A stretch of 21,560 nt of DNA, taken from IMG/VR virus record IMGVR_UViG_3300030108_003339, positions 16,027 through 37,586 of that record; one strand, given 5' to 3'. Below the pieces are notes generated by a model. That model was not told where the DNA came from and made no database searches. It saw nothing but the letters and a program-made list of their open reading frames with translations. The position numbers and the translations under genes were made by a program. Source of the stretch: a virus. The number at the start of each line of letters is the position of its first letter. The stretch's first letter is position 1. Below, one piece after another: positions 7,460 through 17,480 of this stretch.

Positions 7460-7648
7460 TTAGCTATAAATGTCAAAAAGTCCTTCTGAAGCATCAATTA
7501 CGCTTTGTTCATTGATTCTTTTTTTCAGACTTTTAATTTCAATATCAATCCACTTCATATCAGGTGTTACTCTCTTCTGAGATAACGCCTGGTTTGCCCA
7601 CTTGGACTCCAATTGAAGTTTCTTTGATATCAACTCCTGCAGTGCCAT
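7460..7648 (-). CDS. Small helical unknown protein overlapping its neighbour
   Basis: A 62-residue leftward protein starting MALQELISKKLQLESKW and continuing as charged amphipathic helix, possibly a short coiled coil. The ATG at 7648 is preceded on its own strand by GAGGAGATAAAAA, an excellent ribosome binding site, which is the main reason to accept this start. Its first 89 bases overlap the end of the 90-residue gene 7560-7832 in another frame. Function unknown. Confidence 0.6.
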   Translation of the reverse strand: MALQELISKKLQLESKWANQALSQKRVTPDMKWIDIEIKSLKKRINEQSVIDASEGLFDIYS

Positions 7649-7832
7649 TTTTTATCTCCTCATATGTGATGAAGGTTCTAGTTTTATCGTAGAAGTCTTC
7701 ACCTTGACATTGAAGCTCCCCGGCTTTCATTTTTCTTTCAGCTAGTTTCAAAGCTTCGCCGTCGTTTTCAGCACTTAGTGTCCCATTAAAATACTTCCCT
7801 TTGTATCGTATCTGAACAAAATAGTGCTTCAT
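7560..7832 (-). CDS. Small unknown protein (90 aa)
   Basis: A leftward 90-residue protein. The first half (MKHYFVQIRYKGKYFNGTLS) looks like beta strands, followed by a helix AENDGEALKLAERKMKAG, then a polar tail. It follows the secreted-protein gene by 6 bases and its distal third overlaps the next gene by 89 bases. The alpha/beta pattern is typical of small phage proteins that modify host functions, but no family is recognised. Confidence 0.65.
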   Translation of the reverse strand: MKHYFVQIRYKGKYFNGTLSAENDGEALKLAERKMKAGELQCQGEDFYDKTRTFITYEEIKNGTAGVDIKETSIGVQVGKPGVISEESNT

Positions 7833-10761: not shown

Positions 10762-10819
10762 AAATCTATTATATAGATATTTCAGAGTCATTAACACTTT
10801 CTCTTAGGTCAGCTAAACA

Positions 10820-10920
10820 GGTGGGTCTCATGGGTCTATTTACTATTATTGTTGTATACCAACAATTATAGGTCAATTTAAGGTGGGTCTGTAGGTGTCC
10901 CTCTGGTGGGTCTAGACCCA
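10820..10920 (+). repeat. GGTGGGTCT repeat cluster with a 14-bp palindrome
   Basis: GGTGGGTCT occurs at 10820-10828, 10882-10890 and 10905-10913, with a fourth TGGGTCT at 10831-10837. The last copy runs into its own inverse, forming the perfect palindrome TGGGTCTAGACCCA (10907-10920). A 7-bp inverted repeat ATTGTTG/CAACAAT (10848-10866) lies between. The array sits upstream of the promoter for the terminase-proximal genes, as expected for operators or origin iterons. Confidence 0.6.
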
Positions 10921-10963
10921 TCACAACGTCTTACGGAAGGGCAAAATTCTTAATAGGGTCAGG

Positions 10964-11093: not shown

Positions 11094-11564
11094 ATGAAAA
11101 CAGGAAAATATTTCTTAGGTGGTGCTGTTAAAGGAGTTGGTGGTAGAGCTGTAAAATTCTTTATGAAACAACCCTTTGTTAGAAAGCAAATAGCCGATAG
11201 AATTACAGAGATTAACAATATTTATGCAAAAGCATCAAAGCCTAAAAACATACCTGCCTCAAAAAGTTTTAAGAATGCTCTTAAAAAAATAGATAAGCAG
11301 GAAGCAAAAGCTTTTATTGTTAGTAAAGAAATGAATAAAAAAGTTCAAGAAGGATATGATGTATTAAAAAAATCAAGGAAGGTAAAATTTGGCCCTAAAG
11401 TAAGCCCTACTGATAGGAGATTAATTCAAGGTATAAGAGACGTAAGAGCAATTCAGTCTAGAATGATTAAAGGTATGAGACAGCTAAGTAGGTATAGAAA
11501 AAGATTAAGTAGAAAAGCGTCAGCCATGATGCAAAAAGAATTATCTGGTAAGAAACCTAACTAA
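11094..11564 (+). CDS. Basic unknown protein upstream of TerS (156 aa)
   Basis: A 156-residue, very basic, mostly helical protein. The start has AGGAAAAAATT before ATG 11094. It opens with KYFLGGAVKGVGGRAVKFF, a glycine-rich amphipathic segment, and ends in a run of basic helices (RQLSRYRKRLSRKASAMM). Its stop shares a base with the TerS start (TAATG), so they are co-translated. High charge suggests DNA or RNA binding, for example as a packaging accessory or minor virion protein; the family is not recognised. Confidence 0.72.
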   Translation: MKTGKYFLGGAVKGVGGRAVKFFMKQPFVRKQIADRITEINNIYAKASKPKNIPASKSFKNALKKIDKQEAKAFIVSKEMNKKVQEGYDVLKKSRKVKFGPKVSPTDRRLIQGIRDVRAIQSRMIKGMRQLSRYRKRLSRKASAMMQKELSGKKPN

Positions 11565-12088
11565 TGTCTGGTCTTAAAAAGAAAGCACTTCGAACTGAGA
11601 AAGATCTCACAATTAAGCAAAAAATGTTTATTGATATTTTAGTTGCTAGTTGGGGCGAGATCACAAAATCAGAAGCTTTAAGACAAGCAAAGTATGAATG
11701 TAAGAATGATAATGATTATTCAGTTATAGCTAGTCGATTAACAAATAGAAAACTCAATCCACACGTATGTAAATATTTAGATAAAAAACTTGAAGAGGCA
11801 TCAGCTAAATTTGAGAGAAACAAAATTAGAAGATATAGAAGACTTGAAAGATTTGCTGATTCAGCAGCAGAAAACAAACAATATTCAGCAGCTGTTAATG
11901 CAGAGTATAGATCAGGTCAGTTAGCTGGTTTATATATTGATAAGAAAGAAGTTAGAGTGTCAGGATTGGAGGGTATGTCACGTGCAGAGCTTGAGAAAAA
12001 ACTCAAAGAGCTATCCAGCAAAATCGATGGTTTCAACGCCAAAACAATCGAAGTTAAGCCAGAGACAAAAGAATTACCTCAAGAGTAA
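11564..12088 (+). CDS. Terminase small subunit
   Basis: A 174-residue protein with the standard small-terminase N-terminus: LTIKQKMFIDILVASWGEI (from about residue 15) and TKSEALRQAKYECKN, the helix-turn-helix that binds the packaging site. A central coiled or helical region (LEEASAKFERNKIRRYRRLERF) and a C-terminal charged tail (GMSRAELEKKLKELSSKI) fit oligomerisation and contact with the large subunit. TerS recognises viral DNA and loads TerL, whose gene lies 3.9 kb downstream instead of adjacent. The GC-rich CTCGTT array in between is a natural candidate for its binding site. Confidence 0.75.
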   Translation: MSGLKKKALRTEKDLTIKQKMFIDILVASWGEITKSEALRQAKYECKNDNDYSVIASRLTNRKLNPHVCKYLDKKLEEASAKFERNKIRRYRRLERFADSAAENKQYSAAVNAEYRSGQLAGLYIDKKEVRVSGLEGMSRAELEKKLKELSSKIDGFNAKTIEVKPETKELPQE

Positions 12089-12466: not shown

Positions 12467-12961
12467 ATGGCAACAAAAAAGCGAGAGTCTAAGCTATCTA
12501 AACTGATTCAAAAAAATTGTAATCAAATACATTTTACCCGCATAGAATCTAGCACAATGAATGGTATTCCTGACTTAAACGGTTGTATAAATGGTAATGG
12601 TTTTTGGATGGAACTAAAATCAGATAAGGTCAAGTATCCGAAGCTATCTAAGTGGCAGATAAGTTGGATAAATAAACATATTAGTTATGGTGGTGTAGTT
12701 ATTATCTGCAATGAGACCCTCTTGCAGAGGTCTATAGAACTATACAGACCGGTGTCCGCTTTCTCGGATCCTCGTTTACTGAAGCCTCGTTTCTCGTTCT
12801 CGAAACCCGTACACTGGCCCTCCTTCCAGGATGCCATAAGGGAGCTGGCAGGACAGAGGAGCTCTCGTTCTCGTTACCTCGTTGAACAATCTCGTTTCTC
12901 GGACAGCATTAGGGACGGCACCGGTAGCCTGTCAGAGCTGGATATGGCACGGGTCTCCTGA
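12467..12961 (+). CDS. PD-(D/E)XK nuclease (VRR-NUC-like) with an unusual C-terminal extension
   Basis: The first ~95 of 164 residues form a compact nuclease of the VRR-NUC/Holliday-resolvase type: NGIPD with catalytic D36, then FWMELKSDK with E49 and K51, then KLSKWQISWINKH and a final strand GGVVIICN. Such phage nucleases are usually about 90-120 residues. From about residue 98 the gene enters a GC-rich array of CTCGTT motifs, and the rest of the protein is serine/arginine-rich (PRFSFSKP, RSSRSRYLVEQSRFSDS). The nuclease core looks intact; the tail seems to be translated repeat DNA. It probably processes branched DNA during recombination or packaging. Confidence 0.75.
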   Translation: MATKKRESKLSKLIQKNCNQIHFTRIESSTMNGIPDLNGCINGNGFWMELKSDKVKYPKLSKWQISWINKHISYGGVVIICNETLLQRSIELYRPVSAFSDPRLLKPRFSFSKPVHWPSFQDAIRELAGQRSSRSRYLVEQSRFSDSIRDGTGSLSELDMARVS

Positions 12962-13002
12962 CCGACGCTCGTTTGTCGTTTCTCGCACTCTCGTTCCTCG
13001 TT
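12763..13002 (+). repeat. CTCGTT motif array in a GC-rich island
   Basis: The exact hexamer CTCGTT occurs ten times on the plus strand in 240 bases (12771, 12786, 12793, 12864, 12870, 12878, 12891, 12968, 12990, 12997), mostly as TCTCGTT or CCTCGTT. Variants CTCGGA, CTCGAA, CTCGCA and GTCGTT fall between them. GC is about 57% over 12781-12960 against about 32% in neighbouring genes. The array spans the nuclease stop codon, so it is not a coding repeat. Spacing is irregular. Extra copies occur at 14180, 15015 and 15034. Confidence 0.75.
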
Positions 13003-13039
13003 TAGGAAGAACCATTGGCAATGGACCGGTAGGAGCACT

Positions 13040-13067
13040 GGAAGGTTGCCTGGCAGAGCAACTTCCC
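13040..13067 (+). other. Hairpin at the end of the GC-rich island
   Basis: GGAAGGTTGC (13040-13049) pairs with GCAACTTCCC (13058-13067) over ten positions with one G-T wobble and one A-C mismatch, around loop CTGGCAGA. It has no T run, so it is a structure or binding site more than a terminator. Confidence 0.4.
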
Positions 13068-13200
13068 TAAGCTAGTTTACGAAAATGAGTTAGTTCCCGT
13101 TTGTCGTTTTAACACTACAACTGATATCTGCTGCTCAAGCTAATGAATACACAGGAGCTGTGTGCTGGTACGGAGCTGTATACATTTTTGCATTTTATTC

Positions 13201-13230
13201 TTGACAATATCCCATCAGGTCTTATATAAC
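13201..13230 (+). promoter_or_regulatory. Strong sigma-70 promoter
   Basis: Consensus TTGACA at 13201-13206 is followed by the overlapping -10 matches TATATA (13223-13228, spacer 16) and TATAAC (13225-13230, spacer 18). It is the best sigma-70 promoter I see in the window. The start site would fall near 13236, exactly where the folded RNA begins. Confidence 0.65.
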
Positions 13231-13235
13231 TTTTC

Positions 13236-13567
13236 TAGATCCAATCAGAGTGTCAAAAGCATTATCGAAAGAGAAGCTACACTCGAGTTCTCTGGTTGGA
13301 TCTGGGGTCAAGTTAAATTAAACTTGAGCTCTGATCCATTGTACTAATACGGCCGATGAGACTGTTCAATGGATCTGGGGTCAAGTAACAGGGCGATGGA
13401 GTAGGGTTATAGAGGTAAGATGCTATAACCAGTAACTGCACTGCTTGACCAGGTTAAGTGAAGAAGGGGACGCCTGGGTAGTAACTTGGCTTAGTCCTAT
13501 GGCTTTCGGGACTATAAACAGACTAGCTGATCGTGGTAGGCATGGTCGCTCTATAAGTCCTACTACC
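13236..13567 (+). ncRNA. Highly structured RNA: ncRNA or long 5' leader
   Basis: Downstream of the promoter at 13201-13230 lie consecutive helices. AGATCCAATCAGAG (13237-13250) pairs with CTCTGGTTGGATCT (13290-13303) with one G-U. TCAAGTT/AACTTGA pair at 13308-13327. A 20-position helix 13322-13341/13367-13386 has two mismatches and one wobble. GGTTATAG/CTATAACC pair at 13405-13430, CCAGG/CCTGG at 13449-13477, TAGTCC/GGACTA at 13492-13514, and GTGGTAGG/CCTACTAC at 13533-13566. GGATCTGGGGTCAAGT occurs twice (13298-13313, 13371-13386), each time closing a stem. AACTTGA (13321-13327) can pair with either of two partners, which suggests alternative folds. No ORF fits. It could be a stand-alone RNA or a regulatory leader of the gene at 13602. 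I could not match it to a known RNA family. Confidence 0.55.
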
Positions 13568-13601
13568 TTCTTAAAAAGGAAAGGTAAACAAAAGGAGAAA
13601 C

Positions 13602-13958
13602 ATGATACCAATTAGAAAAAGAGATATCTGCGAACAACAGCTACGCAAGATGTGCAGAGAAACTGCGGACGGAATTACCGACCCGGACAAAGAGCGTTTG
13701 AACGATACCCATAAGTGGATGGAAAGAGTCTACGATATAGAATGGATCACCTCCAGAGACCACAGTTACAAAGGAGCTAGGTTACTAGTTGCTGGAGGCG
13801 GACCTACGATTTGGGTCAACGTCAAGACGGACGAGGTCGAAGGTTATTGGGCCGGGGACCATTGCACAGAGCCATTCCAGGACAACCTTGGCTTACGGGC
13901 ACATCTAGAGCAACTACACAAAGAAAGTCTAGAGCAACTACACAAAGAAAGGAAATAA
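13602..13958 (+). CDS. Conserved marine-phage protein of unknown function (118 aa)
   Basis: Starts at ATG 13602 behind AAAAGGAGAAAC. The core YDIEWITSRDHSYKGARLLV, then GGGPTIWVNVKTDEVEGYWAGD, is a compact beta-rich domain seen in many marine phages and some bacteria; I know of no assigned activity. The C-terminus carries a perfect tandem duplication of 24 bases (13904-13927 and 13928-13951) that repeats LEQLHKES/LEQLHKER, a recent-looking expansion by replication slippage. It is the first gene after the structured RNA, so its expression may depend on that element. Confidence 0.75.
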   Translation: MIPIRKRDICEQQLRKMCRETADGITDPDKERLNDTHKWMERVYDIEWITSRDHSYKGARLLVAGGGPTIWVNVKTDEVEGYWAGDHCTEPFQDNLGLRAHLEQLHKESLEQLHKERK

Positions 13959-13959
13959 A

Positions 13960-14139
13960 ATGCCATTTTCAAAAAGACAAAGTCACAGACAAAAGAGAAT
14001 TAAAAATGCAAAGATACCGGTTACCGTTAACAACGTAACTAGACAACAGCTCGAAACACTTAAGTGTGAACTACAAATGATGGCAACACCTTGGAAAAAA
14101 CAAGGTGTTGATATCCAGGTTGGTAAGAAGGTGGCATGA
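13960..14139 (+). CDS. Small basic protein (59 aa)
   Basis: ATG 13960, with AAAGGAAATAAA just before it, opens 59 codons ending TGA 14137-14139. The product starts MPFSKRQSHRQKRIKNAKIP, very basic, then VTVNNVTRQQLETLKCELQMM, a strand and helix, and ends basic. It may bind nucleic acid. It begins one base after the stop of the upstream gene and overlaps the next by ATGA (14136-14139), so all three are one operon. Confidence 0.65.
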   Translation: MPFSKRQSHRQKRIKNAKIPVTVNNVTRQQLETLKCELQMMATPWKKQGVDIQVGKKVA

Positions 14140-14255
14140 CTTTAATCATGTTTATCCTAATTGTTCTGTTTCTAGTTCCCTCGTTTTCGGGAGGCCTGAT
14201 AATTATACTACTAGCATGTTGGTGGGCCCTGCAAGCAGGTTTCTCCTTCTTCTAA
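14136..14255 (+). CDS. Tiny two-helix membrane protein (39 aa), holin-like
   Basis: ATG 14136 overlaps the previous stop as ATGA. The 39 residues form two hydrophobic stretches, TLIMFILIVLFLVPSF and LIIILLACWWALQAGF, joined by a short SGG turn. That hairpin topology suits a small holin or other membrane peptide. A CTCGTT motif (14180) falls inside it. No lysis partner is visible next to it, so holin is a guess. Confidence 0.5.
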   Translation: MTLIMFILIVLFLVPSFSGGLIIILLACWWALQAGFSFF

Positions 14256-14256
14256 T

Positions 14257-14307
14257 CCCGTCTCGTGTCGTTCTTAATTACAACTTAGAATGATTCTAAA
14301 CTAGACA
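14257..14307 (+). repeat. Copy A of a ~50-bp direct repeat with an inverted repeat
   Basis: Matches 14368-14417 with one substitution and one inserted A. It contains GTGTCGTT and the 15-base palindrome TTAGAATGATTCTAA (14285-14299). It begins right after the stop of the 39-residue membrane gene. Confidence 0.7.
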
Positions 14308-14367
14308 CAAGCTCTGCCGGGCAACTTTCACCACAACTTCCACCACCGCCACCAGCTCTTACTGGTT

Positions 14368-14417
14368 CCCGTATCGTGTCGTTCTTATTACAACTTAGAA
14401 TGATTCTAAACTAGACA
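14368..14417 (+). repeat. Copy B of the ~50-bp direct repeat
   Basis: Second copy, with its TTAGAATGATTCTAA palindrome at 14395-14409. The 60-base spacer between copies is C-rich with a small ACCAG/CTGGT hairpin and has no ORF. The two palindromes are 110 bases apart. They look like paired operators upstream of the promoter-like element at 14479. Confidence 0.7.
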
Positions 14418-14478
14418 ATTAACGGGGTCTCCAGAGAAAATCGTGTGGAAATGCAACTATGTTTGCCATATTTTTTTA

Positions 14479-14506
14479 TTGACTTATATATGGGATATGA
14501 TAAGAC
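14479..14506 (+). promoter_or_regulatory. Promoter-like element, copy 1
   Basis: Starts TTGAC and ends with TGGGATATGATAAGAC (14491-14506); TTGA and this 16-mer are 8 bases apart, exactly as in the copy at 15159-15186. It lies 29 bases before the start at 14536. The spacing does not suit a standard sigma-70 promoter, so a phage-specific promoter is possible. Confidence 0.5.
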
Positions 14507-15007: not shown

Positions 15008-15044
15008 GCCGTCGCTCGTTGGCGACGGCTCGGCTCGTTTGTTT
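15008..15044 (+). terminator. GC-rich terminator hairpin
   Basis: GCCGTCGC (15008-15015) pairs perfectly with GCGACGGC (15022-15029) around TCGTTG, followed after a few bases by TTTGTTTT (15037-15044). It ends the transcript of the MGLDQYA gene. Two CTCGTT motifs (15015 and 15034) overlap it. Confidence 0.6.
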
Positions 15045-15158: not shown

Positions 15159-15186
15159 TTGATATTAATGTGGGATATGATAAGAC
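15159..15186 (+). promoter_or_regulatory. Promoter-like element, copy 2
   Basis: TTGA at 15159 and TGGGATATGATAAGAC at 15171-15186, with the same 28-base length as the element at 14479. It lies 34 bases before the start at 15221 and is the obvious promoter candidate for that gene pair. Confidence 0.5.
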
Positions 15187-15995: not shown

Positions 15996-17480
15996 ATGGC
16001 AAGTCTAGATAATTTTACAGATGACGAACTACGGGCGTTAATTTTAAAAAAACAAATCGAATTTATAAAATTATGTCAGGACAACTTTTTGATCTTTGTT
16101 CGTGCCATGTGGCCAGATTTTATTTGTAGAGATACCACAGATCCTACAAAGTTTGGACATCATCAAATTATTGCAAAAGAATTTGAATCTATAGCAACTG
16201 GAAAGCACAATCGTTTGATTGTAAATATGCCACCAAGACATACTAAGTCTGAGTTTGCATCTTATTTATTTCCAGCTTGGATGATAGGTCGTAATCCTAA
16301 AATGAAACTTATGCAGGTTTCACACAACGCTGAACTTGCAACAAGGTTCGGTAGCAAAGTCAGAAACTTAATGGAGACTGAAGACTACAAAAGTATTTTC
16401 GGAGATGTTAAACTTCGTGAAGATAGTAAGGCTAAGGGACGTTGGGAGACCAATCATGGTGGAGAATACTTTGCAGCGGGGGTAGGCGGTTCTATTACAG
16501 GACGAGGGGCGGATCTTCTTATTATCGATGACCCACATACAGAACAAGATTCTATGTCTGATTCAGCAATGGATCGTGCATTTGATTGGTATAGTTCAGG
16601 ACCCAGACAAAGACTTCAACCAGGTGGTTCTATTGTTGTTGTCATGACAAGATGGGCTACCGATGATTTAACAGGGAGGCTCATCAAATCACAAGCTGAG
16701 CCTAAGTCTGATAAGTGGCGAACAATATCATTCCCCGCCATACTTGAAAGTGGGAATCCTGTCTGGCCAGAATATTGGAAATTAGATGAATTAGAATCTG
16801 TCAAAGCATCTGTCTCAACAAAAAATTGGAATGCACAATATATGCAAGATCCAACATCAGAAGAAGGTGCGATTATTAAAAGAGATTGGTGGCAAGATTG
16901 GGAGTATGAAAAAATTCCTGCACTAAAACATGTTATACAAAGTTATGATACTGCGTTCTCTAAAAAAGAAACCGCAGATTATTCTGCGATTACAACATGG
17001 GGAATATTTCAACCAGCAGAGGGTTATGAGGATTGTATTATTTTATTAGATGCTATGAAAGGCAGATATGATTTTCCTGATTTAAAAAATTTAGCATTAG
17101 AACAATATCAATACTGGCAACCTGAAACCGTTATTATTGAAGCTAAAGCATCTGGTCAACCTTTAATACATGAGTTAAGAAGAGCTGGTATTCCTGTAGT
17201 AGATTATGTTCCAGCTAAAGGTAGAGATAAACACACTAGAATAAACTCCGTGGCTCCAGTGTTTGAATCAGCTATGGTTTATGCCCCTTTACATGAAAAA
17301 TTTGCCCAAGAGGTGATCGAAGAATGTGCTGCCTTTCCTAATGGACAATACGATGACTATGTTGATTCAATGACCCAAGCTGTGATAAGATTCAGACAAG
17401 GTGGATTTATAAGCACTTATACTGATGAATTAGATGCACCAAACTTTAAGATAGAAAAGGAACATAAGTATTATGGCTAA
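15996..17480 (+). CDS. Terminase large subunit
   Basis: A 494-residue DNA packaging motor. The ATPase has a Walker A-type MPPRHTKSEFAS (M78 to about 89, with K84), GGSITGRGADLLIIDDPH with Walker B D178/D179, and coupling motif VVVMTRWATDDL. The C-terminal RNase H-like nuclease shows SYDTAFSK with D318, VIIEAKASG with E382, and YDDYVDSM with D453/D454/D457 for metal binding. TerL cuts concatemeric DNA and pumps it into the prohead with TerS. It is the first clear late gene; its end overlaps the following gene by 8 bases. Confidence 0.93.
   Translation: MASLDNFTDDELRALILKKQIEFIKLCQDNFLIFVRAMWPDFICRDTTDPTKFGHHQIIAKEFESIATGKHNRLIVNMPPRHTKSEFASYLFPAWMIGRNPKMKLMQVSHNAELATRFGSKVRNLMETEDYKSIFGDVKLREDSKAKGRWETNHGGEYFAAGVGGSITGRGADLLIIDDPHTEQDSMSDSAMDRAFDWYSSGPRQRLQPGGSIVVVMTRWATDDLTGRLIKSQAEPKSDKWRTISFPAILESGNPVWPEYWKLDELESVKASVSTKNWNAQYMQDPTSEEGAIIKRDWWQDWEYEKIPALKHVIQSYDTAFSKKETADYSAITTWGIFQPAEGYEDCIILLDAMKGRYDFPDLKNLALEQYQYWQPETVIIEAKASGQPLIHELRRAGIPVVDYVPAKGRDKHTRINSVAPVFESAMVYAPLHEKFAQEVIEECAAFPNGQYDDYVDSMTQAVIRFRQGGFISTYTDELDAPNFKIEKEHKYYG

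Follow-up and report, generated by a model that had tools for sequence, protein, structure and literature searches.

An array of short repeats, all pointing in one direction, lies at the 3' end of the nuclease gene NUC in the window analyzed here (the whole stretch of 21,560 nucleotides, part of a 37.6-kb virus record and kin of Pelagibacter phage HTVC023P). The array is conserved in place among relatives, its word changes from one branch of these phages to another, and further copies of the word occupy a fixed position before promoter-like elements. This raises the possibility, which we favor tentatively, that the array is a multicopy operator for a putative lineage-specific regulator. It would function at the DNA level as a docking array, its many one-direction copies presenting the recognition word of a putative DNA-binding protein that we infer to be of the phage lineage itself. 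This protein would bind the main array at the NUC end as well as the copies that lie close to promoters of the accessory-gene island, from NUC to TerL, and its binding would set the timing of transcription of the island genes by the host RNA polymerase. A role of the array in gene activation is more likely than one in the initiation of packaging. Family scans identified no cognate regulator in these phages.

The main array (12771 to 13002, plus strand) consists of ten exact CTCGTT hexamers starting at 12771, 12786, 12793, 12864, 12870, 12878, 12891, 12968, 12990, and 12997, which bears out the ten one-strand copies reported in a first-pass annotation of this DNA. The whole window holds 20 copies on both strands, compared with an expectation of 5.0 (standard deviation, 2.2), and none of 100 shuffles reaches 20. 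A degenerate last unit, CCCGTTTGTCGTT, is found at 13096 to 13108 on the plus strand, about 92 bp ahead of the -35 in the promoter-like element that follows. The array had been placed in a GC-rich island of about 57%, and GC is indeed 0.57 over 12800 to 12999, against about 0.30 to 0.35 upstream. The intergenic filler of the island (12800 to 14450, and in relatives) is GC rich in contrast to the AT-rich genome, contains many CTGCAGCTGG-like words, and differs between close relatives.

The genes are arranged in the order g11094, TerS (11564 to 12088), g12157, NUC (12467 to 12961), island genes, and TerL (15996 to 17480), with TerS, NUC, and TerL on the plus strand. The array thus lies between TerS and TerL, as had been stated, although two genes intervene between TerS and the array end. 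It begins inside NUC, with most of it in the 3' third of the gene, passes the stop codon, and sits upstream of the promoter-like element P1. Among 77 relatives, hexamers inside the NUC open reading frame fall in frame 1 (252 copies), frame 2 (132 copies), and frame 0 (10 copies), so that a single reading frame does not account for the array, in agreement with the earlier view that it is not driven by coding. TerS was assigned as the terminase small subunit gene through Terminase_2 matches, obtained for 11 of the 12 family members aligned (best E value, 1.9e-5), and the HTVC023P annotation, and TerL is the large subunit gene. The structure predicted for TerS has short N-terminal helices followed by one long helix. 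NUC is a VRR-NUC/Hjc-like nuclease gene, as Pfam VRR_NUC and Hjc each match 5 of the 15 members of its family (best E values, 8e-4 and 4e-4, respectively). NUC and the array are the most constant neighbors of each other. The protein itself is unlikely to bind the array word, because its predicted structure is nearest to Holliday junction resolvases and because characterized VRR-NUC proteins are structure selective, according to the accessible part of the source (PMC4103454).

Relatives were gathered by TerL, TerS, and pattern searches. The first-pass annotation had proposed checking whether the array is kept in place when sequence diverges, and it is: 79 of 90 unique loci with both a TerS and a NUC match harbor at least four CTCGTT copies within 2.5 kb after TerS, while TerS identity drops to 64%. 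Among the 11 loci below this cutoff, the contigs of L134, L114, and L199 end within about 740 bp of TerS, L065 and L075 (both of the GTTGACC group), L001, and L079 carry words other than CTCGTT, and L141, L113, L037, and L111 truly lack the array, which is therefore dispensable. In 900-bp regions of 62 deduplicated relatives, about 600 forward CTCGTT copies were counted versus 5 reverse copies (about 120-fold), with 0.08 to 0.48 expected per region, and neighboring copies are mostly 6 or 7 bases apart within groups and 68 to 80 apart between groups. Parsimony reconstruction of the array class takes 7 steps with the NUC tree and 6 with the TerS tree, which does not discriminate between the two. 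A DNA-pattern scan for the array gave matches mainly from the window's own clade. One match, L186/G016, is an unrelated virus with opposite-direction arrays at its two ends and was judged to be a chance or end-repeat match. The matches listed by another such scan were largely background and were left out of the analysis.

Other branches harbor another word in the same place. GCTTGNN heptads are present at the 3' end of NUC in all 16 HTVC027P-type loci in which NUC is usable, and the word is GCTCGC in 023Pt_psg01, GTTGAC in L070, and GCTATG in L079; of four L070-group members inspected, two (L055 and L065) have just two or three copies. The HTVC023P branch provides weaker support, as a word cluster was detected (P < 0.05 versus shuffles) in 22 of 32 loci, with words that differ and units of 20 to 75 bp. 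A NUC match was obtained in only 64 of the 168 loci covered by this cross-branch search. HTVC023P and HTVC027P have one recorded host strain and two different array words, indicating that the host does not set the word and that it is not the word of a host factor. A Chi-like host motif was dropped for the same reason.

The link to transcription comes from copies of the word near promoter-like elements. P1 (TTGACA, 16 bases, TATATA; 13201 to 13228) was recognized by sequence and is conserved downstream of the array in relatives. A second module contains a degenerate doublet, CTCGTGTCGTT, followed by the palindrome TTAGAATGATTCTAA (14262 to 14299), a repeat of this element consisting of ATCGTGTCGTT and the palindrome (14373 to 14409), and the promoter-like element P2 (TTGACT...GGGATATGATAAGAC; 14479 to 14506). 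Two further CTCGTT copies, starting at 15015 and 15034 (15015 to 15039), the first in a hairpin loop, are located ahead of promoter-like P3 (core, 15172 to 15186), and all of these features are on the plus strand. A strict sigma-70 scan found neither P1 nor P2, and both are promoter-like only. Each occurrence of the palindrome is perfect (14285 to 14299 and 14395 to 14409), and in module 2 of relatives it is kept about 20 bp after a CTCGTT pair. After P1, a 372-nucleotide leader (13234 to 13605) has a predicted fold much more stable than those of its shuffles (z = -3.66; 0 of 100). It matches nothing in Rfam, and the fetched loci contain no relative of it longer than 120 bases.

Two promoter-like elements that differ in their cores are each preceded, in the window's clade, by a pair of CTCGTT copies at 70 to 110 bp. 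The nearest upstream CTCGTT is at 75 to 99 bp for 52% of 128 promoter-like elements, compared with 4% of random points, and elsewhere for the remaining 48%. These counts come from related phages, so that the number of independent placements is two or three and not 128. These elements are from 58 islands, the 62 regions minus 4 that were too short; 4 more islands have no promoter-like element. When P2 cores were picked without regard to CTCGTT, 56 of 108 had a copy within 150 bp upstream, mostly at 100 to 140 bp, and 2 of 108 had a reverse copy, with eight shifted control windows giving 0 to 39 of 95 to 108, some about a third. Copies at a fixed distance to promoters, which would be expected of an operator array, are thus observed, the promoters themselves being predictions.

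The HTVC027P clade displays a closer arrangement with its own word. All of the 12 loci have GCTTG in the 260 bp upstream of gp33, and TTGACA lies within 3 bases of a heptad before gp33 in 10 of them, as judged by eye from the printed sequences; in HTVC027P itself, heptads likewise adjoin the -35 of gp34. Tandem GCTTGNNGCTTG has 17 matches in the 57.6-kb HTVC027P genome; the main array accounts for 10 of them, the DNA before gp33 for 4, that before gp34 for 2, and the rest of the genome for 1. Weighing against an operator, the largest cluster of copies is the one in and after NUC, which in this clade faces no promoter. In RNA sequencing of HTVC027P infection, the part of the report available to us places gp33 and gp34, and no other genes, in an extra temporal cluster that is high at 6 to 9 h (PMC12753301). 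This is the single experimental evidence that touches the array; it is indirect and concerns one phage, and gp33 and gp34 are neighbors on one strand that may share a transcript. HTVC027P is described in the same part of that report as having no RNA polymerase of its own (PMC12753301), and the array would help to explain the timing of accessory genes in such a phage.

The same copies bear on two other explanations. One is that they form an RNA-level element (a Rho-type site, decoy, or small RNA) in the NUC transcript, which we regard as highly improbable: CTCGTT is pyrimidine rich and copies often follow stop codons, but the words of other branches are not pyrimidine rich, the HTVC027P arrays at gp33 and gp34 are upstream of those genes' own -35, and the RNA folding of 12760 to 13180 is ordinary (z = 0.46). 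The array displays neither the Rfam match nor the unusual fold of a structured RNA family; no match was found at gathering scores, the one subthreshold chance match being outside the array, and a tRNA scan of the array detected nothing. The other is that same-direction repeats flank island cassettes and allow their exchange or loss by homologous recombination. One-direction copies do occur at gene ends, in a region of variable gene content among close relatives, and HTVC027P gp33 is flanked by same-direction arrays. The tight promoter distance and strict strand bias, however, exceed what recombination requires, and the array-less loci have kept no leftover copy of the word, making a cassette boundary improbable.

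The first-pass annotation had suggested a pac/cosB-type site recognized by TerS, and a second repeat array linked to TerS is instructive in this respect. Array 1 (10819 to 10923), upstream of TerS, has direct GGTGGGTCT-type copies spaced 9, 53, 12, and 11 and one inverted copy, laid out as two direct copies, about 44 AT-rich bases, three direct copies, and the inverted one. AT-rich inverted repeats flank it. The core spacing is present in 46 of 65 loci (33, and 13 with one extra match), a count that leaves out L001 and L003, which gave no match; most of the others are near variants, and the inverted copy is found in 62 of 65. The array 1 word follows the TerS clade, being GTATC, GGGTC, or GTCCC; some arrays of the window's clade mix words. 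NFSDI occurs in the TerS helix region of the GTATC group only. This covariation is a single nested change and does not amount to repeated evidence. The layout recurs in HTVC023P with the word CTAGGA. A third repeat cluster (GCACAA, G000 7470 to 7683, also in G001) proved to be a Gln/Ala-rich coding repeat.

A site recognized by TerS would be expected to have a word that tracks TerS specificity and to be present in phages with the same TerS. CTCGTT, however, is unchanged over TerS identities of 64 to 100% and over all three array 1 words. L141, L113, L037, and L111 have no array, and the TerS of L141 is 97.6% identical to that of array-bearing L166 and falls among those of array-bearing phages in the TerS tree. 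Together with the copies at promoter-like elements, these results contradict recognition of the CTCGTT array by TerS (11564 to 12088), and TerS binding does not appear to be the best reading of this array. Array 1 would be the better candidate for the TerS site (cosB/pac) and is, more generally, a strong pac/cos or origin candidate. A conserved array that switches between branches and a TerS-linked array that switches independently would provide natural paired data for finding two cognate proteins.

One-direction repeats at the end of a gene are a typical feature of phage origins, and lambda and SPP1 have iterons inside or near genes. By analogy, the CTCGTT copies might be iterons that bind an initiator at a replication origin, but this is quite improbable. 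The fixed spacing expected of iterons is found in array 1 instead (9, 53, 12, and 11), and the CTCGTT array has spacing peaks at 6, 7, and 68 to 80 but varies in copy number and layout. Unit length and number also differ between branches (6, 7, about 20, and about 45 to 75 bp), and GC skew is nearly monotonic over seven genomes or fragments, with no turn at the array.

A rather unlikely but more serious alternative is a packaging initiation site, in which terminase would cut at an inverted repeat in NUC and the directional array downstream would be the binding part. The inverted repeat (12714 to 12733) is just before the array, at about NUC codons 75 to 90 and about 40 bp ahead of the first hexamer, with a fixed place and branch-specific letters. 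Scores of at least 7 were obtained for 47 of 127 unique NUC sequences versus 3 shuffled ones, and for 0 or 1 in four other NUC windows. Contig left ends pile up here in relatives. Contigs were fetched via TerL (267 left limited, 259 placed), with NUC codon 85 as the anchor; among 104 left ends within 1,500 bp of it, 9 fall in the 50-bp bin from -50 to 0, compared with 1.6 on average in each of the 59 other bins, the bin in question having been picked after the counts were seen and the chance, by our own rough Poisson estimate multiplied by 60 bins, being below 1 in 100. L479, L432, L068, and L083, from different branches, start 0 to 3 bases before an inverted repeat, and both ends of the contig G022, which at 59.6 kb is about as long as a genome, fall within the array. 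The seven hexamers and IHF site of P1 pac inside pacA, as given in the part of the source at hand, would be a precedent by analogy (PMC10028697).

Other observations weigh against packaging. L033, an array-less relative of the L141 kind, likewise starts at the inverted-repeat place, so that the cut, if real, does not need the array, and array-less L141 has nearly the same TerS as L166. Most contigs cross the site, and three right ends occur there (at -54, -51, and -21), making assembly breaks possible. A weak search by NUC N-terminal query revealed, by eye, no right end at the inverted repeat among the best 80 of 390 matches, those nearest to the window. G018 (the L479 record, 62,993 bp) circles the genome more than once, and its passes, and hence its repeated ends, differ (96.6% and 79% identity), for which reason it seems to join two strains. 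As to other records, end overlaps are 163 bases in G023 and 98 bases in G024, with no exact overlap in G003, G013, G011, W03, or W01. The pile-up is a lead only, as it concerns contigs and not virion reads, and assemblers can break where strains diverge.

The two readings divide the evidence between them. The pile-up is accounted for by packaging only and is left without explanation by an operator; the promoter pattern is accounted for by regulation only, and packaging leaves the recurrence of the word at promoters unexplained, with array 1, adjoining TerS, being more like a TerS site. The earlier pac/cosB proposal thus retains in-place conservation and the left-end pile-up and loses recognition by TerS. 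Common to the two is the need for a phage protein able to recognize a word specific to its lineage. We assign a small chance to a two-part element, in which the inverted repeat and array would start packaging and the same protein-word pair would control the island promoters. If so, one fast-changing phage code would couple transcription timing to packaging, leaving lineages blind to the DNA of others.

HTVC023P-type phages are widespread in the ocean, as far as the available part of the source describes (PMC9599517), and we found no description of their regulatory or packaging sites in the PMC literature. Among known systems, the pac site of P1, inside pacA, comprises, according to the part of the source consulted, an IHF site, Dam sites, and seven TGATCA/G hexamers spread over 161 bp (PMC10028697). 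It resembles the array reported here in having repeated hexamers within a coding gene near packaging genes, whereas here 4 to 15 copies of a word without GATC extend over at least 350 bp, promoter-like elements have extra copies, and relatives that lack the array break the link to TerS. In lambda, the R sites of cosB are repeated binding sites beside cosN. An inverted repeat followed by repeated putative binding sites near terminase genes recalls lambda cosN/cosB and HK97 cos, but the copy number of the array varies freely, the candidate with fixed spacing is array 1, and ends are known from contigs only. Activators of the OmpR/PhoB and SARP types bind tandem direct repeats against the -35. 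The HTVC027P heptads that abut TTGACA before gp33 and gp34 are similar; in the window's clade, by contrast, the repeats are 70 to 110 bp upstream of the -35, and the large cluster is in a gene. The PeSLs of T4-type phages are mobile regulatory cassettes with stem-loop modules. They share with the island promoter-bearing intergenic modules between variable genes, but the part held in common here is a directional word and not a stem-loop.
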